Assembly (NCBI GenBank): GCA_001564255.1
Contig: LKNC01000059.1
Location: 1 to 12,172 of the forward strand
Reading direction: 5' to 3'
DNA from: Natrialbaceae archaeon Tc-Br11_E2g1
GTDB taxonomy: Archaea; Halobacteriota; Halobacteria; Halobacteriales; Natrialbaceae
DNA: 12,172 nt
Made by a program: the position numbers and the translations under genes. The stretch's first letter is position 1. Each line of letters starts with the position of its first letter. Below are positions 5,565 through 12,076 of the stretch, piece after piece. Below the pieces are notes generated by a model. That model searched no databases, was not told where the DNA came from, and saw only the letters and a program-made list of their open reading frames with translations.

Positions 5565-5993
5565 TTACTCCCCCTGAGAGATCGGATCGAAACTGTCGAC
5601 GGGATTGACCGAGTAGTCGACGGTCAACACGTCCTGGGTCGCACGGATCTTGCCGACGAACGTCGAGATATTCTCGAGTGACCCCTCGAGGACGAACAGT
5701 TCCATACAGTAGTGATCGCCGACGTGGCTGTGGAAGTTCGAGGCGACGAGCTCGTCGTGTTCGTGTCGCAGGTGCATCATCCGCTCCTCGACGGTGGTCG
5801 TCTCGTAATCAAAGAGGACGGTGACGATCCCCATCAGTTCGCGGTCCTCGAGGCGGACGTCCTCGAACTCTCCCAGGAGATTCCGAGAGGCCTCGCGGAC
5901 GACCTCGCTCCGTCCGGTGTAACCGTGTTCGTCGGCGAACTGGTCGAGTCGCTCCAGGAGTTCGTCGGGCATCGAGACGCTGACAACTGCCAT
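5565..5993 (-). CDS. nikR: NikR-family nickel-responsive transcriptional regulator
   Basis: A 142-residue ribbon-helix-helix regulator. The N-terminal DNA-binding part (about 1-45) reads [20 protein letters not shown] followed by the [14 protein letters not shown] helix. The C-terminal ACT-like metal-sensing domain keeps all four ligands known for the E. coli square-planar nickel site: H77, H88, H90 and C96 (E. coli H76, H87, H89, C95), with the same spacing. The length is close to the family's usual 130-150. The frame is open further upstream, but ATG 5993 ([11 protein letters not shown]) matches the family start. Known NikR proteins repress nickel uptake genes when nickel is bound. No nickel transporter is in this window; the neighbours are copper-related nosL genes, so its targets here may be itself or genes elsewhere. 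A near-perfect palindrome lies between its probable TATA element and the start, a position suited to autoregulation. Confidence 0.93.
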
Positions 5994-6077: not shown

Positions 6078-6704
6078 TCAGGCCATCTCCTCGAGACGGG
6101 GTTCCCTGTAGAACTCCGCCATCTCGCGGTCGATGTCCTCGAGGGTGAACACGTCGTCCTCGGAGAGGTCGTCGTACTCCTCGACGTAGTCGAGGGCGCT
6201 CTCTTCGTCCTCGAACGCGGGCGGACTCCCCCGTGGCATCGGGTAGTCGTGACGGTCGGTGTCACGCTCGTACACGAAGTAGCCCTCGGTGACGTCAATA
6301 AGGTCGCCGCTGTCGAAACTCGTCGCCCAGACGCCGACGATCTCCTCGTCGGGGTCGCCACCGGTGAACTTCTCGGGTGCGAAGTAGTAGGCGACCAGAC
6401 ACCCCTTCGAACAGAAGTACTCGCGGTGGCCGTCCTCGTGAACGACCTGTGCGTTCCAGTCGGGGTACTCTACGGCGATCATATTACAAACCGCACACTC
6501 TCCCTCGTCGTCGTCCTCGGGGAAGTCGACGGGCTCTGTGAGTTCCGGCTCCTCGCCGTTCTCTTCCTCGTCGTCACCGTTCTCTTCCTCGTCGTCACCG
6601 TTCTCCCCTTCGTCGCCGAGACAGCCCGCGATGGCGGCCGTCGCGCCGATGCCGATCGTTCCGAGTACCCTGCGTCTGTCGACCGTTCGTCGGTCAGATG
6701 TCAT
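6078..6704 (-). CDS. nosL: NosL-like copper-binding Tat lipoprotein, copy 1
   Basis: A 208-residue secreted lipoprotein. The N-terminus has a twin-arginine motif (DRRRVLG, 9-15), a hydrophobic stretch and a lipobox ending at C28 (AIAGC), then an acidic EENGDDE-repeat linker (about 29-57). The globular part begins with C70-x2-C73-N-M75, the NosL copper motif region, followed by a YFC98SKGC102 pair that also resembles TRASH/YHS metal domains. The second half has the YFVYERDT...YPMPRG segment (M156) and an F...A...F pattern seen in NosL proteins. NosL is the copper donor for nitrous oxide reductase maturation and acts on the outer face of the membrane, passing copper to NosD. ATG 6704 is chosen because it starts the signal peptide and lies 25 nt after a TATA element. 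It is a close tandem paralogue of the gene at 6895-7569. Confidence 0.85.
   Translation of the reverse strand: MTSDRRTVDRRRVLGTIGIGATAAIAGCLGDEGENGDDEEENGDDEEENGEEPELTEPVDFPEDDDEGECAVCNMIAVEYPDWNAQVVHEDGHREYFCSKGCLVAYYFAPEKFTGGDPDEEIVGVWATSFDSGDLIDVTEGYFVYERDTDRHDYPMPRGSPPAFEDEESALDYVEEYDDLSEDDVFTLEDIDREMAEFYREPRLEEMA
6556..6597. repeat. 21-bp tandem repeat inside nosL copy 1
   Basis: Two exact consecutive 21-bp units (6556-6576 and 6577-6597), with a degenerate third from 6598, encode the acidic GDDEEEN-type linker after the lipidated cysteine. The length is a multiple of three, so gain or loss of a unit only changes linker length. Confidence 0.85.
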
Positions 6705-6728: not shown

Positions 6729-6745
6729 CATAAATCAAATATGGT
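6729..6745 (-). promoter_or_regulatory. Promoter element of nosL copy 1, shared with copy 2
   Basis: ACCATATTTGATTTATG on the minus strand, with the AT-rich core 25-30 nt before ATG 6704. The identical 17 bases occur at 7596-7612 before the second nosL. It most likely contains the TATA box and the BRE of a leaderless promoter. Confidence 0.7.
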
Positions 6746-6751
6746 CCATGA

Positions 6752-6767
6752 ACCGAACGGATTCGGT
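6752..6767 (-). promoter_or_regulatory. Perfect inverted repeat ACCGAA-N4-TTCGGT, probable activator site of nosL copy 1
   Basis: ACCGAACGGATTCGGT is a perfect 6+6 inverted repeat with a 4-bp spacer. Its CGAA-N4-TTCG core starts 8 bp upstream of the shared promoter element, a typical activator position in archaea. I recall a motif of this type for NarO-controlled denitrification promoters in Haloferax; the regulator is inferred from that memory, not shown here. Confidence 0.55.
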
Positions 6768-6819
6768 AGACGAACCAGAGCGGTTTTGCAAATCAGGGGA
6801 ACGGTGTTGTGTTTGGTCG

Positions 6820-6836
6820 GTTTGGTCGCCCCAAAC
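6820..6836 (-). terminator. Possible hairpin terminator after nosL copy 2
   Basis: GTTTGG and CCAAAC form a perfect 6-bp stem with a 5-nt loop, about 60-75 nt after the stop of nosL copy 2. A tandem 9-bp repeat (GTTTGGTCG, 6811-6819 and 6820-6828) overlaps it. No T-run follows on the transcribed strand, so a terminator role is doubtful. Confidence 0.25.
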
Positions 6837-6894: not shown

Positions 6895-7569
6895 TCAGTG
6901 GTCGTGGCCGTCGTCGTGACCGTTGTCGTCCTCGAAGAACTGCGCTCTGTAGGTCATCGCGAGATCCATGTCGAACTCCTCGAGGGTGATGATGTCGTCG
7001 TCGTCGTACGCCTCGAAGTCGTCGACGAACTCCTCGGCGTCCTCGCGATCGGCGAATGGGATCGGGTTCATCCGCATGATGTCGTCGATGTCGTCCGGAT
7101 CGGTCACACGCACGAAGTACGCTTCCGAGGCGTCGATGAGGCCGTGGTCCTCGGCGCCCGGACCGGCGTCCTCGTCGACGTCCGCGCCGTACTCGGTGAC
7201 CCACACGGTCTCGATCCCGGAGTCCGGACCGCCGAACTGTTCGGGGTCGGCGTAGTAGGCGGCCATACAGCCCGACGAACAGAAGACCTCCCGGTGGCCG
7301 TCCTCGTGGACGAGTTGGGCGTTCCAGTCGGGGTACTCGACGGCGATCATATCACAAACCGCACACTCCCCCTCGTCGTCTTCGGGGAAGTCTGTGGGCT
7401 CTGTGAGCGCTGTCCCCTCGCCGTCGTCGTCTCCGTTTGCCTCATCGTCACCGTTGTCGTCGCCGTTTGCCTCCTCCTCGCCGAGACAGCCCGCGAGCGC
7501 GGCCGCCGCGCCGATGCCGACCGTTCCGAGTACCCAACGCCTCTCGACCGAACGTTCTGCAGGTGTCAT
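6895..7569 (-). CDS. nosL: NosL-like copper-binding Tat lipoprotein, copy 2
   Basis: A 224-residue lipoprotein with the same layout as copy 1. It has a Tat motif (ERRWVLG, 9-15), a lipobox cysteine C28 (LAGC), an acidic Asn/Asp/Gly linker, then C69-x2-C72-D-M74 and FC97SSGC101. The segment around TEPxDFPEDD through AVEYPDWNAQ and VHEDGHRE is almost identical to copy 1 in protein and DNA, so this is a recent duplication or is kept alike by gene conversion. Differences are in the second half: copy 2 has a longer insertion (about 127-145), an MRM pair (M165, M167) and a histidine-rich end (GHDDGHDH) that could bind extra metal. ATG 7569 is chosen because it opens the signal peptide and lies 27 nt after the shared promoter element; the frame continues further upstream without looking like protein. 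Its expected role is copper supply to NosD and nitrous oxide reductase. Confidence 0.85.
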   Translation of the reverse strand: MTPAERSVERRWVLGTVGIGAAAALAGCLGEEEANGDDNGDDEANGDDDGEGTALTEPTDFPEDDEGECAVCDMIAVEYPDWNAQLVHEDGHREVFCSSGCMAAYYADPEQFGGPDSGIETVWVTEYGADVDEDAGPGAEDHGLIDASEAYFVRVTDPDDIDDIMRMNPIPFADREDAEEFVDDFEAYDDDDIITLEEFDMDLAMTYRAQFFEDDNGHDDGHDH

Positions 7570-7595: not shown

Positions 7596-7612
7596 CATAA
7601 ATCAAATATGGT
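7596..7612 (-). promoter_or_regulatory. Promoter element of nosL copy 2, identical to that of copy 1
   Basis: The same 17 bases as at 6729-6745 lie 27 nt before ATG 7569. Identity of this non-coding element implies a duplicated promoter or selection for the same regulation. Confidence 0.7.
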
Positions 7613-7620
7613 GTGAACAT

Positions 7621-7632
7621 CGAATGGTTCTG
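7621..7632 (-). promoter_or_regulatory. Degenerate counterpart of the CGAA-N4-TTCG site
   Basis: CGAATGGTTCTG matches the core before nosL copy 1 (CGAACGGATTCG) at 9 of 12 positions and lies at exactly the same 8-bp spacing from the shared promoter element. It may be a weaker site for the same regulator or a decayed one. Confidence 0.4.
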
Positions 7633-8872: not shown

Positions 8873-9241
8873 CTAGCCCGTATCGTCGATCCGCCGTTCT
8901 TCCCAGCTCGTCGATCCGCTTCGGTAGATCGCAGCCAGTAACAACGACGCGATGAGGAAGTCGAGTCCGTGTTCGACGAGGTGGTGGATACCCATCGGGA
9001 CGTAGCCGAGGGCGGTCCCGAACCCGACGATCGTCCGGACGACGAGCGCGCCGAGTGCGAGCGTAATGAGGAGATACGGGACCGATCGTCGCTGGGAGTA
9101 CGCAATGGCCCCGAGTGTGAACAGGACAGTCGTGCCGACCCCCGCGAGGAAGATGGTGCCGAGGAGTATCGGCGAGTGTCGGATCTCGGACCAGTCGGTC
9201 AGCGTGGACGCCTCGAGGCCGAGAGCGACCTCCCCGATCAT
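8873..9241 (-). CDS. Haloarchaeal membrane protein with three helices
   Basis: A 122-residue integral membrane protein with three likely helices (about residues 23-47, 56-81 and 93-114). A conserved-looking HHLVEHGLDF segment at the start of the last helix has three histidines that could bind metal or haem. The frame is open to ATG 9382, but ATG 9241 (MIGEVALGLEAS) is preferred: a GGAG Shine-Dalgarno core (9249-9252) stands 7 nt upstream, and the extra residues are low-complexity. It is divergent from the winged-helix regulator at 9483, with 241 bp between the two starts, a common layout for a regulator and its target. I do not assign a family or function. Confidence 0.78.
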   Translation of the reverse strand: MIGEVALGLEASTLTDWSEIRHSPILLGTIFLAGVGTTVLFTLGAIAYSQRRSVPYLLITLALGALVVRTIVGFGTALGYVPMGIHHLVEHGLDFLIASLLLAAIYRSGSTSWEERRIDDTG

Positions 9242-9332
9242 GGGCTCACTCCCGCCCCCACGTTCGGTGACCGATCGTTCGTTCCGCTCATTGTCGGCTA
9301 CCCATAGAACCGTCTCCCGAATGTACTCACTG

Positions 9333-9347
9333 GTTCGTTTGCCGAAC
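9333..9347. repeat. Inverted repeat GTTCG-N5-CGAAC between divergent genes
   Basis: GTTCGTTTGCCGAAC has perfect 5-bp arms around a 5-bp spacer, in the 241-bp gap between the membrane-protein and regulator genes. It could be an operator of the regulator. A repeat this short may be chance. Confidence 0.3.
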
Positions 9348-9482: not shown

Positions 9483-10022
9483 ATGAGTGACGTACGCCAG
9501 AACATCCGACGGCAGGTCTGTACCGACCCCGGAATCCACTTTAACGAACTCGTCCGCGAACTCGATCTGGCTGCGGGCCAGACCCAGTATCACGTCCGGC
9601 GGCTGCTTCGGTCCGAGGAGATCGTCTCCGAGGAACTGTACGGGCGCACCCACTACTACCCCGACGGCTACGACGACTGGGACCGGTGTGCACTGGCACT
9701 GTTCCGCCGTGAAACCTGTCGTGACGTGTTGTTGTACCTGATCGAATACGACGGTGCTCGCCCGAACGCCGTCGCCGACGAACTCGACATCGCCCGGAGC
9801 ACCCTCGAGTATCACCTCTCTCATCTCGTCGAGGAAGAACTCGTCGAGAAACGGTACGGCGACCGAAACAGAGTCACCCTCCACCTCGCGAACCCCGAAC
9901 GAACGGGTGAACTCCTCTCGCGGGTGACGCCGTCGGTTTCGGATCGCCTGATCGACCGGTTTACCCGCCTCGTCGACACGCTACTCGAGGACGCCGACGG
10001 CACCCCCCGTCCGACGAACTGA
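9483..10022 (+). CDS. Double winged-helix transcriptional regulator
   Basis: A 179-residue cytoplasmic DNA-binding protein with two winged helix-turn-helix units. The first spans about residues 4-60, with recognition helix AAGQTQYHVRRLLRSEEIV and wing EELYGRTHYYPD. The second spans about 70-137, with ADELDIARSTLEYHLSHLVEEELV and wing EKRYGDRNRVTLHL. A short helical tail follows. Both repeats have the Q/E-Y-H-x2-x-L recognition-helix pattern typical of haloarchaeal two-wHTH regulators. Cysteines C13, C69 and C79 are present but do not make an obvious sensor cluster, so it is not a NarO-like protein. The frame is open upstream to 9066, but ATG 9483 starts the folded domain. It faces the membrane-protein gene divergently and lies 104 bp before nosD, so either is a candidate target. 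What it senses cannot be told from sequence. Confidence 0.85.
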   Translation: MSDVRQNIRRQVCTDPGIHFNELVRELDLAAGQTQYHVRRLLRSEEIVSEELYGRTHYYPDGYDDWDRCALALFRRETCRDVLLYLIEYDGARPNAVADELDIARSTLEYHLSHLVEEELVEKRYGDRNRVTLHLANPERTGELLSRVTPSVSDRLIDRFTRLVDTLLEDADGTPRPTN

Positions 10023-10097
10023 TCGGCTCCCGTCCCGCCACAGGTCGGCGGCTCTCCGTCCGGTTTTCCCACTCGGTTCGAACGCCAGACCAGACGG

Positions 10098-10103
10098 TAT
10101 ATT
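10098..10103 (+). promoter_or_regulatory. TATA box of nosD
   Basis: TATATT in a GC-rich context is centred about 27 nt before GTG 10127, indicating a leaderless nosD transcript and supporting that GTG as the start. Confidence 0.65.
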
Positions 10104-10126: not shown

Positions 10127-12076
10127 GTGCAACGTCCAGGGCTCCTGTCGGTCTTGCTCGTCGCCGTCGTCGTGGTCCTCGGGGTGGGTGGGTTGTTCGC
10201 CGTCGACGCCGGCCAGGCCGACCACGAACCGGCCAACTTCGATCGGACCGTCCAGATGGGCATCACCCTCGAGGACGAGATCGCCCGCGGCGACGACGTC
10301 GATTTCCCACAGGTCCAGGTGTTTTACTCCCAGTATGGGTACGTCGTGGGCTACTACGGCGTCGAGACGTTCCTCGAGACCCGAGACCAGGAGGGACACC
10401 AACAGCGGTTCGGTTATCCGCTCACCGTCCTGGTCTCCGATTACAGCGGCGTCGACCTCGAGTTGACCGAGGAGGGGTATCCCGCGACCGACGCCGTCAC
10501 CGGCTGGGCCGACGCCGAGGACGCGGTCTTCGTCGTCGACAGCGAGGCCAGGGCGACACACGGCGAGACCGTCCTCCCCTTCTCCGAACGGGAAGACGCC
10601 GAGGCGTTCGCCGAGGAGTACGACGGTGAGGTGGTGAGCTGGACGGAGCTCCTCGAGGTCGGTTTCGAGATCGACGACGCCGACGTGGTCCGCGAGCGCG
10701 TCGACGACGACCACGGCTACGCCGACGAGTTAGTCGCCAGTTCCCGGCCGTTTCTCGACCGCGACGTTCGTCCCATCTCCGTCGAGGTCGGCGGCGAGGA
10801 CGGCCCCGAGACGATCGAGGCGGCGATCGAGGAAGCCGACAACGGGACGACCGTCGTCGTCCCGGAGGGGACCTACGAGGAACGGATCGAGATCGACAAA
10901 CCGATCACCCTCGCCGGGGAGGGTGCGACGATCGACGGCGGCGGCGACGGGACCGTCGTCACGGTCACCGACGACGACGCCGCGGTTACCGGCCTCGAGA
11001 TCGTCGGAACCGGGGACATCGCGACCGACCGCGACCGGGACGAACCGGCCGACGACGAGGAGGTTCCGGAAGACGGCCACGACGACGGCGAGTGGGACGA
11101 GCGCGTCGAGGAGTACTACGGGACCGGCGACGCCGGGATCACCGTCGACGACGCGTCGAACGTCTTACTCGAGGACGTGACGATCGAAACGGAGGCAAAC
11201 GGCGTGTTACTGCTGGATAGCGCGGACAACATCGTTCGGAACGCGACCGTGTTCGGGACCGAGGACCCCTACGACGGCTTCATGGGCGTCGCGACGTTGC
11301 GCTCTCCGGGCGTAATCGAGGACTCGACGTTCGTCGGTGGCCGGGACGGGGTCTACACCCACCGTGCCGACGGGATCGTCGTCCGGGACAACGAGGCCAG
11401 GGACCTCCGGTACGGGATCCACCTGATGTACACCTCCGACTCGTTGATCGCGGACAACCACGTCGAGAACCCCGACGTCGCGGCCATCGACGTCATGACC
11501 GTCCCCGAACGGAACGCGATCGTCGGCAACTACGCGGAGGGCGGGAACTACGGCTACCGGATGCTCGGCAGTCACTTCTACATCGCCGACAACGTCGCCG
11601 TCGACAACGGCGTCGGCATACGGGACGCCGTCACCAACACCATCTACGAGCGGAACGTCTTCGCCGGCAGTGAGACCGGCTTCGAATCGGTGTCGATCCT
11701 GCCGACCGATCGGGTCGTCGACAACGACTTCGTCGACAACGACGAACACGCCACCTCCGCGGACGGACCACTGCGCGTGTTCACCCACGACGGGACGGGC
11801 AACTACTGGGACGGCGCGATCGGGACCCCGGACGGTCCGACCCTCGACCGATCGTACGCCCCGACCGACGCCGTCGACAAGCGACTCCACTACGTCGACG
11901 GCACTCCAACCCTCGCTCAGTCGCCGGCAGTGACGGCGACCCGCGGCCTCGAGGACGCCGTCCCGGCACTCCGGCAGGGCACGATCATCGACACCGCGCC
12001 GCTGTGTGAGCCGGCAAACCCCGACGGCCTCGAGGCGATCGGCTGGGAGGGTGCCGTCCGGAACTGTGAGGCGTAA
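10127..12076 (+). CDS. nosD: NosD-like periplasmic beta-helix copper protein with an N-terminal NosL-like segment
   Basis: A 649-residue exported protein. Residues 5-27 are a hydrophobic signal or anchor. Residues 60-178 resemble a NosL fold, notably VFVVDSEARATHGETVLPFSE followed by EDAEAFAEEYDGEVVSWTEL, the pattern of the NosL C-terminal half, but without cysteines. From about 215 to 625 lies the parallel beta-helix of NosD/CASH repeats, starting with ETIEAAIEEADNGTTVVVPEGTY. It includes the NosD hallmark RYGIHLMYTSDS (428-439) and NYWDG (559-563). An acidic insert (about 300-332) interrupts an early coil. Two cysteines, C627 and C647, lie at the C-terminus. NosD works with the ABC transporter NosFY in building the copper sites of nitrous oxide reductase and accepts copper from NosL. 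GTG 10127 is supported by a TATA box about 27 nt upstream. NosF/NosY are not in the window. Confidence 0.9.
   Translation: MQRPGLLSVLLVAVVVVLGVGGLFAVDAGQADHEPANFDRTVQMGITLEDEIARGDDVDFPQVQVFYSQYGYVVGYYGVETFLETRDQEGHQQRFGYPLTVLVSDYSGVDLELTEEGYPATDAVTGWADAEDAVFVVDSEARATHGETVLPFSEREDAEAFAEEYDGEVVSWTELLEVGFEIDDADVVRERVDDDHGYADELVASSRPFLDRDVRPISVEVGGEDGPETIEAAIEEADNGTTVVVPEGTYEERIEIDKPITLAGEGATIDGGGDGTVVTVTDDDAAVTGLEIVGTGDIATDRDRDEPADDEEVPEDGHDDGEWDERVEEYYGTGDAGITVDDASNVLLEDVTIETEANGVLLLDSADNIVRNATVFGTEDPYDGFMGVATLRSPGVIEDSTFVGGRDGVYTHRADGIVVRDNEARDLRYGIHLMYTSDSLIADNHVENPDVAAIDVMTVPERNAIVGNYAEGGNYGYRMLGSHFYIADNVAVDNGVGIRDAVTNTIYERNVFAGSETGFESVSILPTDRVVDNDFVDNDEHATSADGPLRVFTHDGTGNYWDGAIGTPDGPTLDRSYAPTDAVDKRLHYVDGTPTLAQSPAVTATRGLEDAVPALRQGTIIDTAPLCEPANPDGLEAIGWEGAVRNCEA

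Follow-up and report, generated by a model that had tools for sequence, protein, structure and literature searches.

The window analysed here, 12,172 nucleotides in all, is contig C48 of a haloarchaeal MAG (2.16 Mb, 68% complete). It carries two adjoining genes, nosL1 and nosL2 (56-57% identity), that we assign to the NosL family because both products score above the PF05573 gathering score and have a CxxCxM motif. Which promoter signal do the two genes have in common, and which regulon does it mark? A sequence-only reading had seen a perfect inverted repeat, ACCGAA-N4-TTCGGT, before nosL1, likened it to the motif of the denitrification regulator NarO, and tentatively placed both copper donors in the denitrification regulon. 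We find that the conserved unit is TTCG-N6-GNACCA, followed at a fixed register by a TATA-like TTT, and that a denitrification regulon is not supported for it. The features discussed are collected in Table 1. In addition, a gene for a NikR-type nickel regulator (5565-5993, minus strand) lies directly downstream of nosL1, and the nosD gene of the window encodes a NosL-NosD fusion.

Table 1. Genes and promoter features of the window, in order of position
Feature	Position	Strand	Description
nosL1	6078..6704	-	NosL-family lipoprotein; PF05573, E 2.8e-11
nosL1 TATA-like box, ATTTATG	6729..6735	-	inside the 17-mer; TTT register from 32 promoters
nosL1 element, TTCGGTTCATGGACCA	6742..6757	-	53 nt before ATG at 6704
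Dyad, TGGTCC-N6-CGAA-N4-TTCG-N6-GAACCA, 36 bp	6742..6777		two elements back to back; palindrome central
Opposite-strand element, TTCGGTAGACGAACCA	6762..6777	+	then GTTTTG at 6783-6788
nosL2	6895..7569	-	NosL-family lipoprotein; PF05573, E 2.8e-18
nosL2 TATA-like box, ATTTATG	7596..7602	-	inside the repeated 17-mer
nosL2 element, TTCGATGTTCACACCA	7609..7624	-	8/9, off-consensus; 55 nt before ATG at 7569
DUF7471 small membrane protein	8873..9241	-	PF24283
Element upstream of DUF7471, TTCGGCAAACGAACCA	9331..9346	-	105 nt before ATG at 9241
Tandem winged-helix protein, candidate regulator	9483..10022	+	PF24266 and HTH_20
nosD element, TTCGAACGCCAGACCA	10077..10092	+	TATATT at 10098; 50 nt before GTG at 10127
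nosD with N-terminal NosL-like domain	10127..12076	+	PF05048, PF05573

The palindrome and the composite element

The inverted repeat before nosL1 is as had been described: ACCGAACGGATTCGGT occupies 6752-6767 without a mismatch. The 17-mer CATAAATCAAATATGGT, reported as common to both nosL promoters, is indeed present in exactly two copies (6729-6745 and 7596-7612; none expected from 200 shuffles), and the gap between it and the CGAA core is 8 bp at both (6746-6753 and 7613-7620). The CGAA-type site claimed before nosL2 did not hold up. Its sequence, CGAATGGTTCTG (7621-7632), is not a palindrome. It has 8 of 12 bases, not 9, in common with the first 12-mer, and it is absent from the matches to CGAANNNNTTCG with at most one mismatch and to ACCGAANNNNTTCGGT with at most three.

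By itself the palindrome is little proof of anything, because its frequency in the window is about that of shuffled sequence and the genome holds many more. ACCGAANNNNTTCGGT with up to three mismatches occurs 8 times in the window versus 8.5 in shuffles, i.e. without enrichment; CGAANNNNTTCG with up to one mismatch occurs 14 times versus 9.9; and there are 113 exact CGAA-N4-TTCG sites in the 2.16-Mb MAG (13 in the reversed control). The palindrome alone was also considered as the functional unit and ruled out: 24 of 32 element-bearing nosL promoters have no full CGAA half.

What the two window promoters have in common, read on the minus strand, is TTCG-N6-NNACCA-N6-ATTTATG, with nosL1 scoring 9/9 and nosL2 8/9 for the element; the '17-bp element' consists of the ACCA arm together with the TATA box. 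The earlier proposal of a conserved promoter element common to both genes therefore survives for this composite and falls for the palindrome at nosL2.

The same architecture recurs upstream of NosL relatives in a set of 61 genomes: TTCG is followed after six free bases by GNACCA and, another five to six bases on, by TTT within a TATA-like box. One arm position was loosened from R to D in the later counts, and each figure belongs to its own pattern form. Four nosL loci whose match starts late (L025, L032, L039 and L042) were left out, giving 40 upstream regions. The element is present at 8/9 or better in 29 of them (shuffle mean 1.8, maximum 6), at 9/9 in 21 (shuffle mean 0.08), and absent at the 8/9 level from 11; when T is permitted at the second arm base, 32 of the 40 qualify. 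The antisense strand of these regions gave 11 sites at 8/9 or better and five at 9/9, part of which we put down to the dyad described below. Across 32 promoters the columns A+4, G+10 and TTT at +23 to +25 stand out beyond the letters used for selection, and TTCG is as conserved as ACCA, the element having been chosen by these letters so that their columns are partly given. Within 260 bp, 39 of 48 nosL loci from named or MAG genomes qualify, a count without a chance control.

A stringent form, TTCG-N6-GAACCA-N5-GTTTTG, has 10 matches in the 61 genomes and none in the reversed control. Nine lie directly before nosL; the tenth is in the window itself, at 6762-6788 on the plus strand, overlapping the palindrome. 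The composite TTCG-N7-RACCA occurs four times in the window (mean 0.15, maximum 1, in 60 shuffles). The spacing of the DUF7471 copy is off-consensus in the window, and in the orthologue of the same-genus genome G001 the element is 50 nt before the likely start. Among the papers listed by searches of the open-licence PMC literature, made by word and not by sequence, none has a title or displayed abstract that deals with TTCG-N6-GNACCA.

At nosL1, CGAA-N4-TTCG is the centre of a dyad, TGGTNN-N6-CGAA-N4-TTCG-N6-NNACCA, since a full CGAA half usually comes with a TGGT arm. The outer arm (at least 3 of 4 bases) is found in 7/8 promoters with the full CGAA half versus 1/24 without it, and in a named set in 9/10 versus 0/29, the two sets overlapping in four genomes (L150, L155, L163 and L165 are from the same genomes as L019, L020, L022 and L029). 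The 36-bp dyad has one copy in the window, both strands counted (shuffle mean 0), and the genome has a second full-dyad site, on C170. In its bare form, GGT-N8-CGAA-N4-TTCG-N8-ACC, the dyad has 11 sites in the 61 genomes versus one in the control, four of them before nosL and seven outside known nosL promoters. With a 5-nt offset the same dyad occurs in Natronorubrum bangense (L226), Haloarcula sp. GH36 (L228), Halobacterium hubeiense (L234) and Haloarcula halophila (L229), where both elements score 8/9. It lies between opposite genes for SCO and NosD in L228, for SCO and NosL in L229, and between two opposite nosL genes in G001.

No convincing gene was found downstream of the plus-strand element in the window (6762-6830), and transcription from there would run against the 3' end of nosL2. 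The plus-strand element (6762-6788) is therefore a relic or an antisense promoter.

Genes behind the element

Four window genes stand behind the element: nosL1, nosL2 (at 8/9), nosD and the DUF7471 gene. A relaxed form has eight matches in the whole MAG versus one in the control, among them nosL1, its plus-strand partner, a third nosL, the window nosD, a gene with a NosD-like N-terminus (no Pfam match, 90 residues scanned) and a gene for a DsbD_2-like membrane protein; at the matches on C40 and C65 there is no copper gene. The pattern TTCGN6GRACCA has 18 matches there (one in the control), of which six were assigned and 12 are without a recognised fitting gene.

A similar relaxed form gave 35 matches across the 61 genomes versus three in the control. 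Thirty of these loci were examined, and 14 led to NosL, three to DUF7350 lipoproteins and two to DUF7475. Three genomes (G001, G021 and G016) together have 23 matches, with none in the control. A gene starts 50-56 nt on from 13 of them (NosL six, NosD two, DUF7475 two, YgaP-like two, HTH_10 regulator one); no fitting gene was found for the other 10. Loose forms of the pattern are thus noisy.

In 17 annotated plasmid loci an element at 8/9 or better precedes 24 of 46 metal-class genes versus 6 of 134 others (p 4e-12), the class labels having been assigned by us after some elements had already been seen. This count excluded genes with an upstream gap below 45 bp or too near the end of the stretch, and L230 was not entered; its fused NosL, scored separately, reaches 6/9 and has no element. 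By gene type the element precedes NosL (10/10), NosD or NosLD (5/5), the TAT beta-propeller (3/3), SCO (2/3), plastocyanin (1/2), 'iron transporter' (2/5) and DUF7471-type genes (1/8). It is absent at this level before multicopper oxidase (0/2) and before the winged-helix genes themselves (0/6), and one further beta-propeller gene and one NosY are also without it. In 13 of the 15 plasmid NosL and NosD/NosLD genes the distance from the element to the start codon is 50-53 nt.

A copper role is not clear for every gene behind the element, the exceptions being those for DyP peroxidase, DUF7475, YgaP-like proteins and the HTH_10 regulator. Before the DyP-type peroxidase gene (L231, 7877) the element scores 8/9 and lies 52 nt from the gene start. 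The element in the promoter of the HTH_10 (Bat-like) regulator gene (L267, G001:C1:1502092) may link the proposed copper regulon to oxygen control.

A candidate regulator

The tandem winged-helix protein encoded at 9483-10022 is the most likely reader of the element, to judge from the company its gene keeps. A relative (E 1e-20 or better) is found in 53 of the 61 genomes, and DUF7471 is close to the winged-helix gene in 28 of 30 loci. The gene behind it differs among genomes. All 15 cases in which that gene encodes NosD, DUF7350 or a beta-propeller lipoprotein (in many instances rich in His) have the element, including L212, whose element falls a few bases past the scanned stretch; where it is ilvE the element is present in 0/6, and with nine other or uncalled genes it is present in one (L224). 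In its relaxed form the element occurs in 27/53 genomes with the winged-helix protein versus 0/8 without (p 0.006, not corrected for kinship). One genome without the protein, G012, has a nosL (L045) that scores 7/9, and thus no element.

Ten plasmid loci were fetched by means of the winged-helix protein. Seven (L231, L232, L234, L237, L250, L251 and L252) have an element at 8/9 or better before a metal-class gene, and three (L233, L235 and L236) have none there. On plasmids of Haloarcula, Halobacterium hubeiense, Salarchaeum and Haloprofundus the winged-helix gene has Nos or cupredoxin genes as neighbours; for L228 and L253 the identity of the protein was checked. A metal-gene island of iron transporters, a TAT protein and the winged-helix gene is alike in L232, L237 and L251, and in L237 and L251 it also holds a cupredoxin and a multicopper oxidase. 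The presence of such alike islands on plasmids of Haloarcula, Salarchaeum and Haloprofundus suggests transfer.

In an AlphaFold2 model (pLDDT 87) the protein folds into two winged helices plus a C-terminal helix. A fold search of the PDB returned no close relative; its matches, to winged-helix proteins among others, were all weak and partial. The second helix-turn-helix weakly matches the ArsR/SmtB model NF033788, and CzrA is among the weak fold matches; the protein differs from that family in having two winged helices per chain and no conserved metal-site cysteines, and in falling below the curated cut-off (31.2 bits versus 55). Among 30 winged-helix sequences no Cys column is conserved, and His 19, 37, 57 and 111 are invariant. 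The main role of the protein may be other than this element, since its presence in 53 of 61 genomes extends far beyond the element-bearing nosL genes.

Alternative readings and a proposed mechanism

The palindrome could be a NarO-type denitrification operator, with the nosL genes in the denitrification regulon. In Haloferax mediterranei a semi-palindrome, CGAAYATDKTYG, lies 66-79 nt before the ATG in nirK, nor and nosZ promoters, according to the passages on this motif in PMC10062603 and PMC11218638, where Hattori 2016 is cited for NarO, and the relevant part of PMC11218638 gives the regulator that binds the motif as undisclosed. The window palindrome has the CGAA-N4-TTCG core (6754-6765) in common with the published motif, and to that extent the likeness drawn earlier is sound. 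It ends at the centre, where the window has CGGA, outside the consensus, with A6 and T7 both replaced by G; the TGGT/ACCA arms and the target genes differ as well. It also speaks for this reading that NosL and NosD are, by family name, NosZ-maturation proteins. Over the 61 genomes, nosZ occurs in 21 and nirK over cut-off in 30. Of the 23 near-complete genomes (completeness 90% or more) in which nosL has the element, nine have nosZ, in keeping with a NarO operator, but 14 do not, and 10, including G001, lack both nosZ and nirK over cut-off. Because of this distribution of nosZ and nirK the placing of the nosL genes in the denitrification regulon is not supported. In the first 330 bases of 21 nosZ loci the plain palindrome is found in 10, the composite at 9/9 in none and at 8/9 in three; a 9/9 match in L070 falls within nosZ itself. 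The TTCG-ACCA part, moreover, is kept in the 24 of 32 promoters where the full CGAA half is absent. A NarO-type operator is accordingly quite improbable, though a better prospect than the Bat-like regulator or the duplication considered next.

The least improbable of the alternatives, still an unlikely one, dispenses with a dedicated activator and takes ACCA-N5-TTT as a special BRE/TATA promoter for one haloarchaeal TFB, with TTCG as an outer contact. ACCA does fall at about the BRE position and in strict register with the TATA-like box. The outlying TTCG is nevertheless as conserved as ACCA (in columns partly given by selection), the element also comes in copies spaced by about 20 bp and in back-to-back dyads, and it tracks one specific winged-helix gene, none of which favours a basal promoter. 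A Bat-like HTH_10 regulator, kin of NarO and DmsR, might read the element, given that the HTH_10 gene of G001 carries it and that in Natrinema pallidum (L238) and N. thermotolerans (L254) nosL or nosD has a Bat-like or similar HTH gene in its vicinity. In the 48 named nosL loci, however, the L254 protein has three short weak matches and the L238 protein none, versus four strong ones for the winged-helix protein, and we rate this reading slightly below the NarO one. It is least plausible of all, with very little probability left to it, that the promoters are alike only through tandem duplication of nosL with its promoter, the 17-mer having no function. The genes do adjoin, are 56-57% identical and have the 17-mer exactly in common; against this, TTCG, ACCA and TTT recur at nosL genes of about 40% identity, at nosD, at SCO and at unrelated lipoprotein genes. 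Duplication may be behind the extra identical bases, not behind the element.

The reading we favour, and consider probable, is that the element is an activator site controlling an extracytoplasmic copper-delivery regulon, with the winged-helix protein as its reader. What we observe is the element, the register in which it stands, the genes that it accompanies and its linkage to the winged-helix gene; binding by that protein, activation over repression, and the signal are inferred. TTCG-N6-GNACCA would act from just upstream of a weak TATA box on genes for extracytoplasmic copper-delivery proteins (NosL, NosD and partners). Each chain would use one of its two helix-turn-helix units for TTCG and the other for ACCA, which are separated by about one helical turn, and the 36-bp dyad would take up a dimer. 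At 6742-6777 two copies stand back to back on the common CGAA-N4-TTCG centre; one side would drive nosL1, and because there are two such copies the site could fire both ways. Upon a copper or redox signal the protein would recruit TFB/TBP to the weak TATA box; the target genes suggest that this signal is copper supply or redox state.

The anatomy is that of a GvpE-type activator site, because of the weak-TATA register, the copies about 20 bp apart and the back-to-back dyads. Tandem elements at about that spacing lie before the beta-propeller lipoprotein gene behind the winged-helix gene in L203, L210 and L216. The sections of PMC4390858 on gas-vesicle promoters of Halobacterium and Haloferax describe GvpE upstream activating sequences, UAS-A and UAS-D, of 2 x 8 nt with 4 nt between and a 7-nt overlap of back-to-back copies, at least one of the opposite promoters being weak without the activator; GvpE itself resembles a leucine zipper. 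As far as that description goes, the likeness lies in a bipartite element that immediately precedes BRE/TATA at a short, constant distance and in overlapping back-to-back copies between opposite promoters. The geometry differs in detail, with 4 nt and 6 nt held 6 apart and a 12-bp centre in common here, as do the target genes and the candidate regulator, a tandem winged helix and not leucine-zipper-like.

The plasmid loci L228, L227, L234 and L253 resemble nosDFYL clusters in that genes for NosD, an ABC ATPase, an ABC permease (taken as NosF and NosY) and NosL stand together on haloarchaeal plasmids. They differ from such clusters in having no NosZ annotated in any fetched stretch and, in one of them, SCO and TauE/SafE as well.

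On a wider statement of this reading our judgement is evenly poised: the PF24266 tandem winged-helix protein next to DUF7471 would be an undescribed haloarchaeal regulator that reads TTCG-N6-GNACCA, alone or as the 36-bp bidirectional dyad, and thereby turns on the genes of a copper-delivery regulon (NosL, NosD/F/Y, SCO, DUF7350 and some cupredoxins) that in many haloarchaea supplies copper enzymes other than NosZ. According to the part of PMC9240420 that deals with metal-responsive regulators, those annotated to date in H. mediterranei are unrelated to copper. Counts of CGAA-N4-TTCG can mix two regulons. Now that an operator, its regulon and a single candidate gene have been defined, how haloarchaea control copper loading becomes directly testable.
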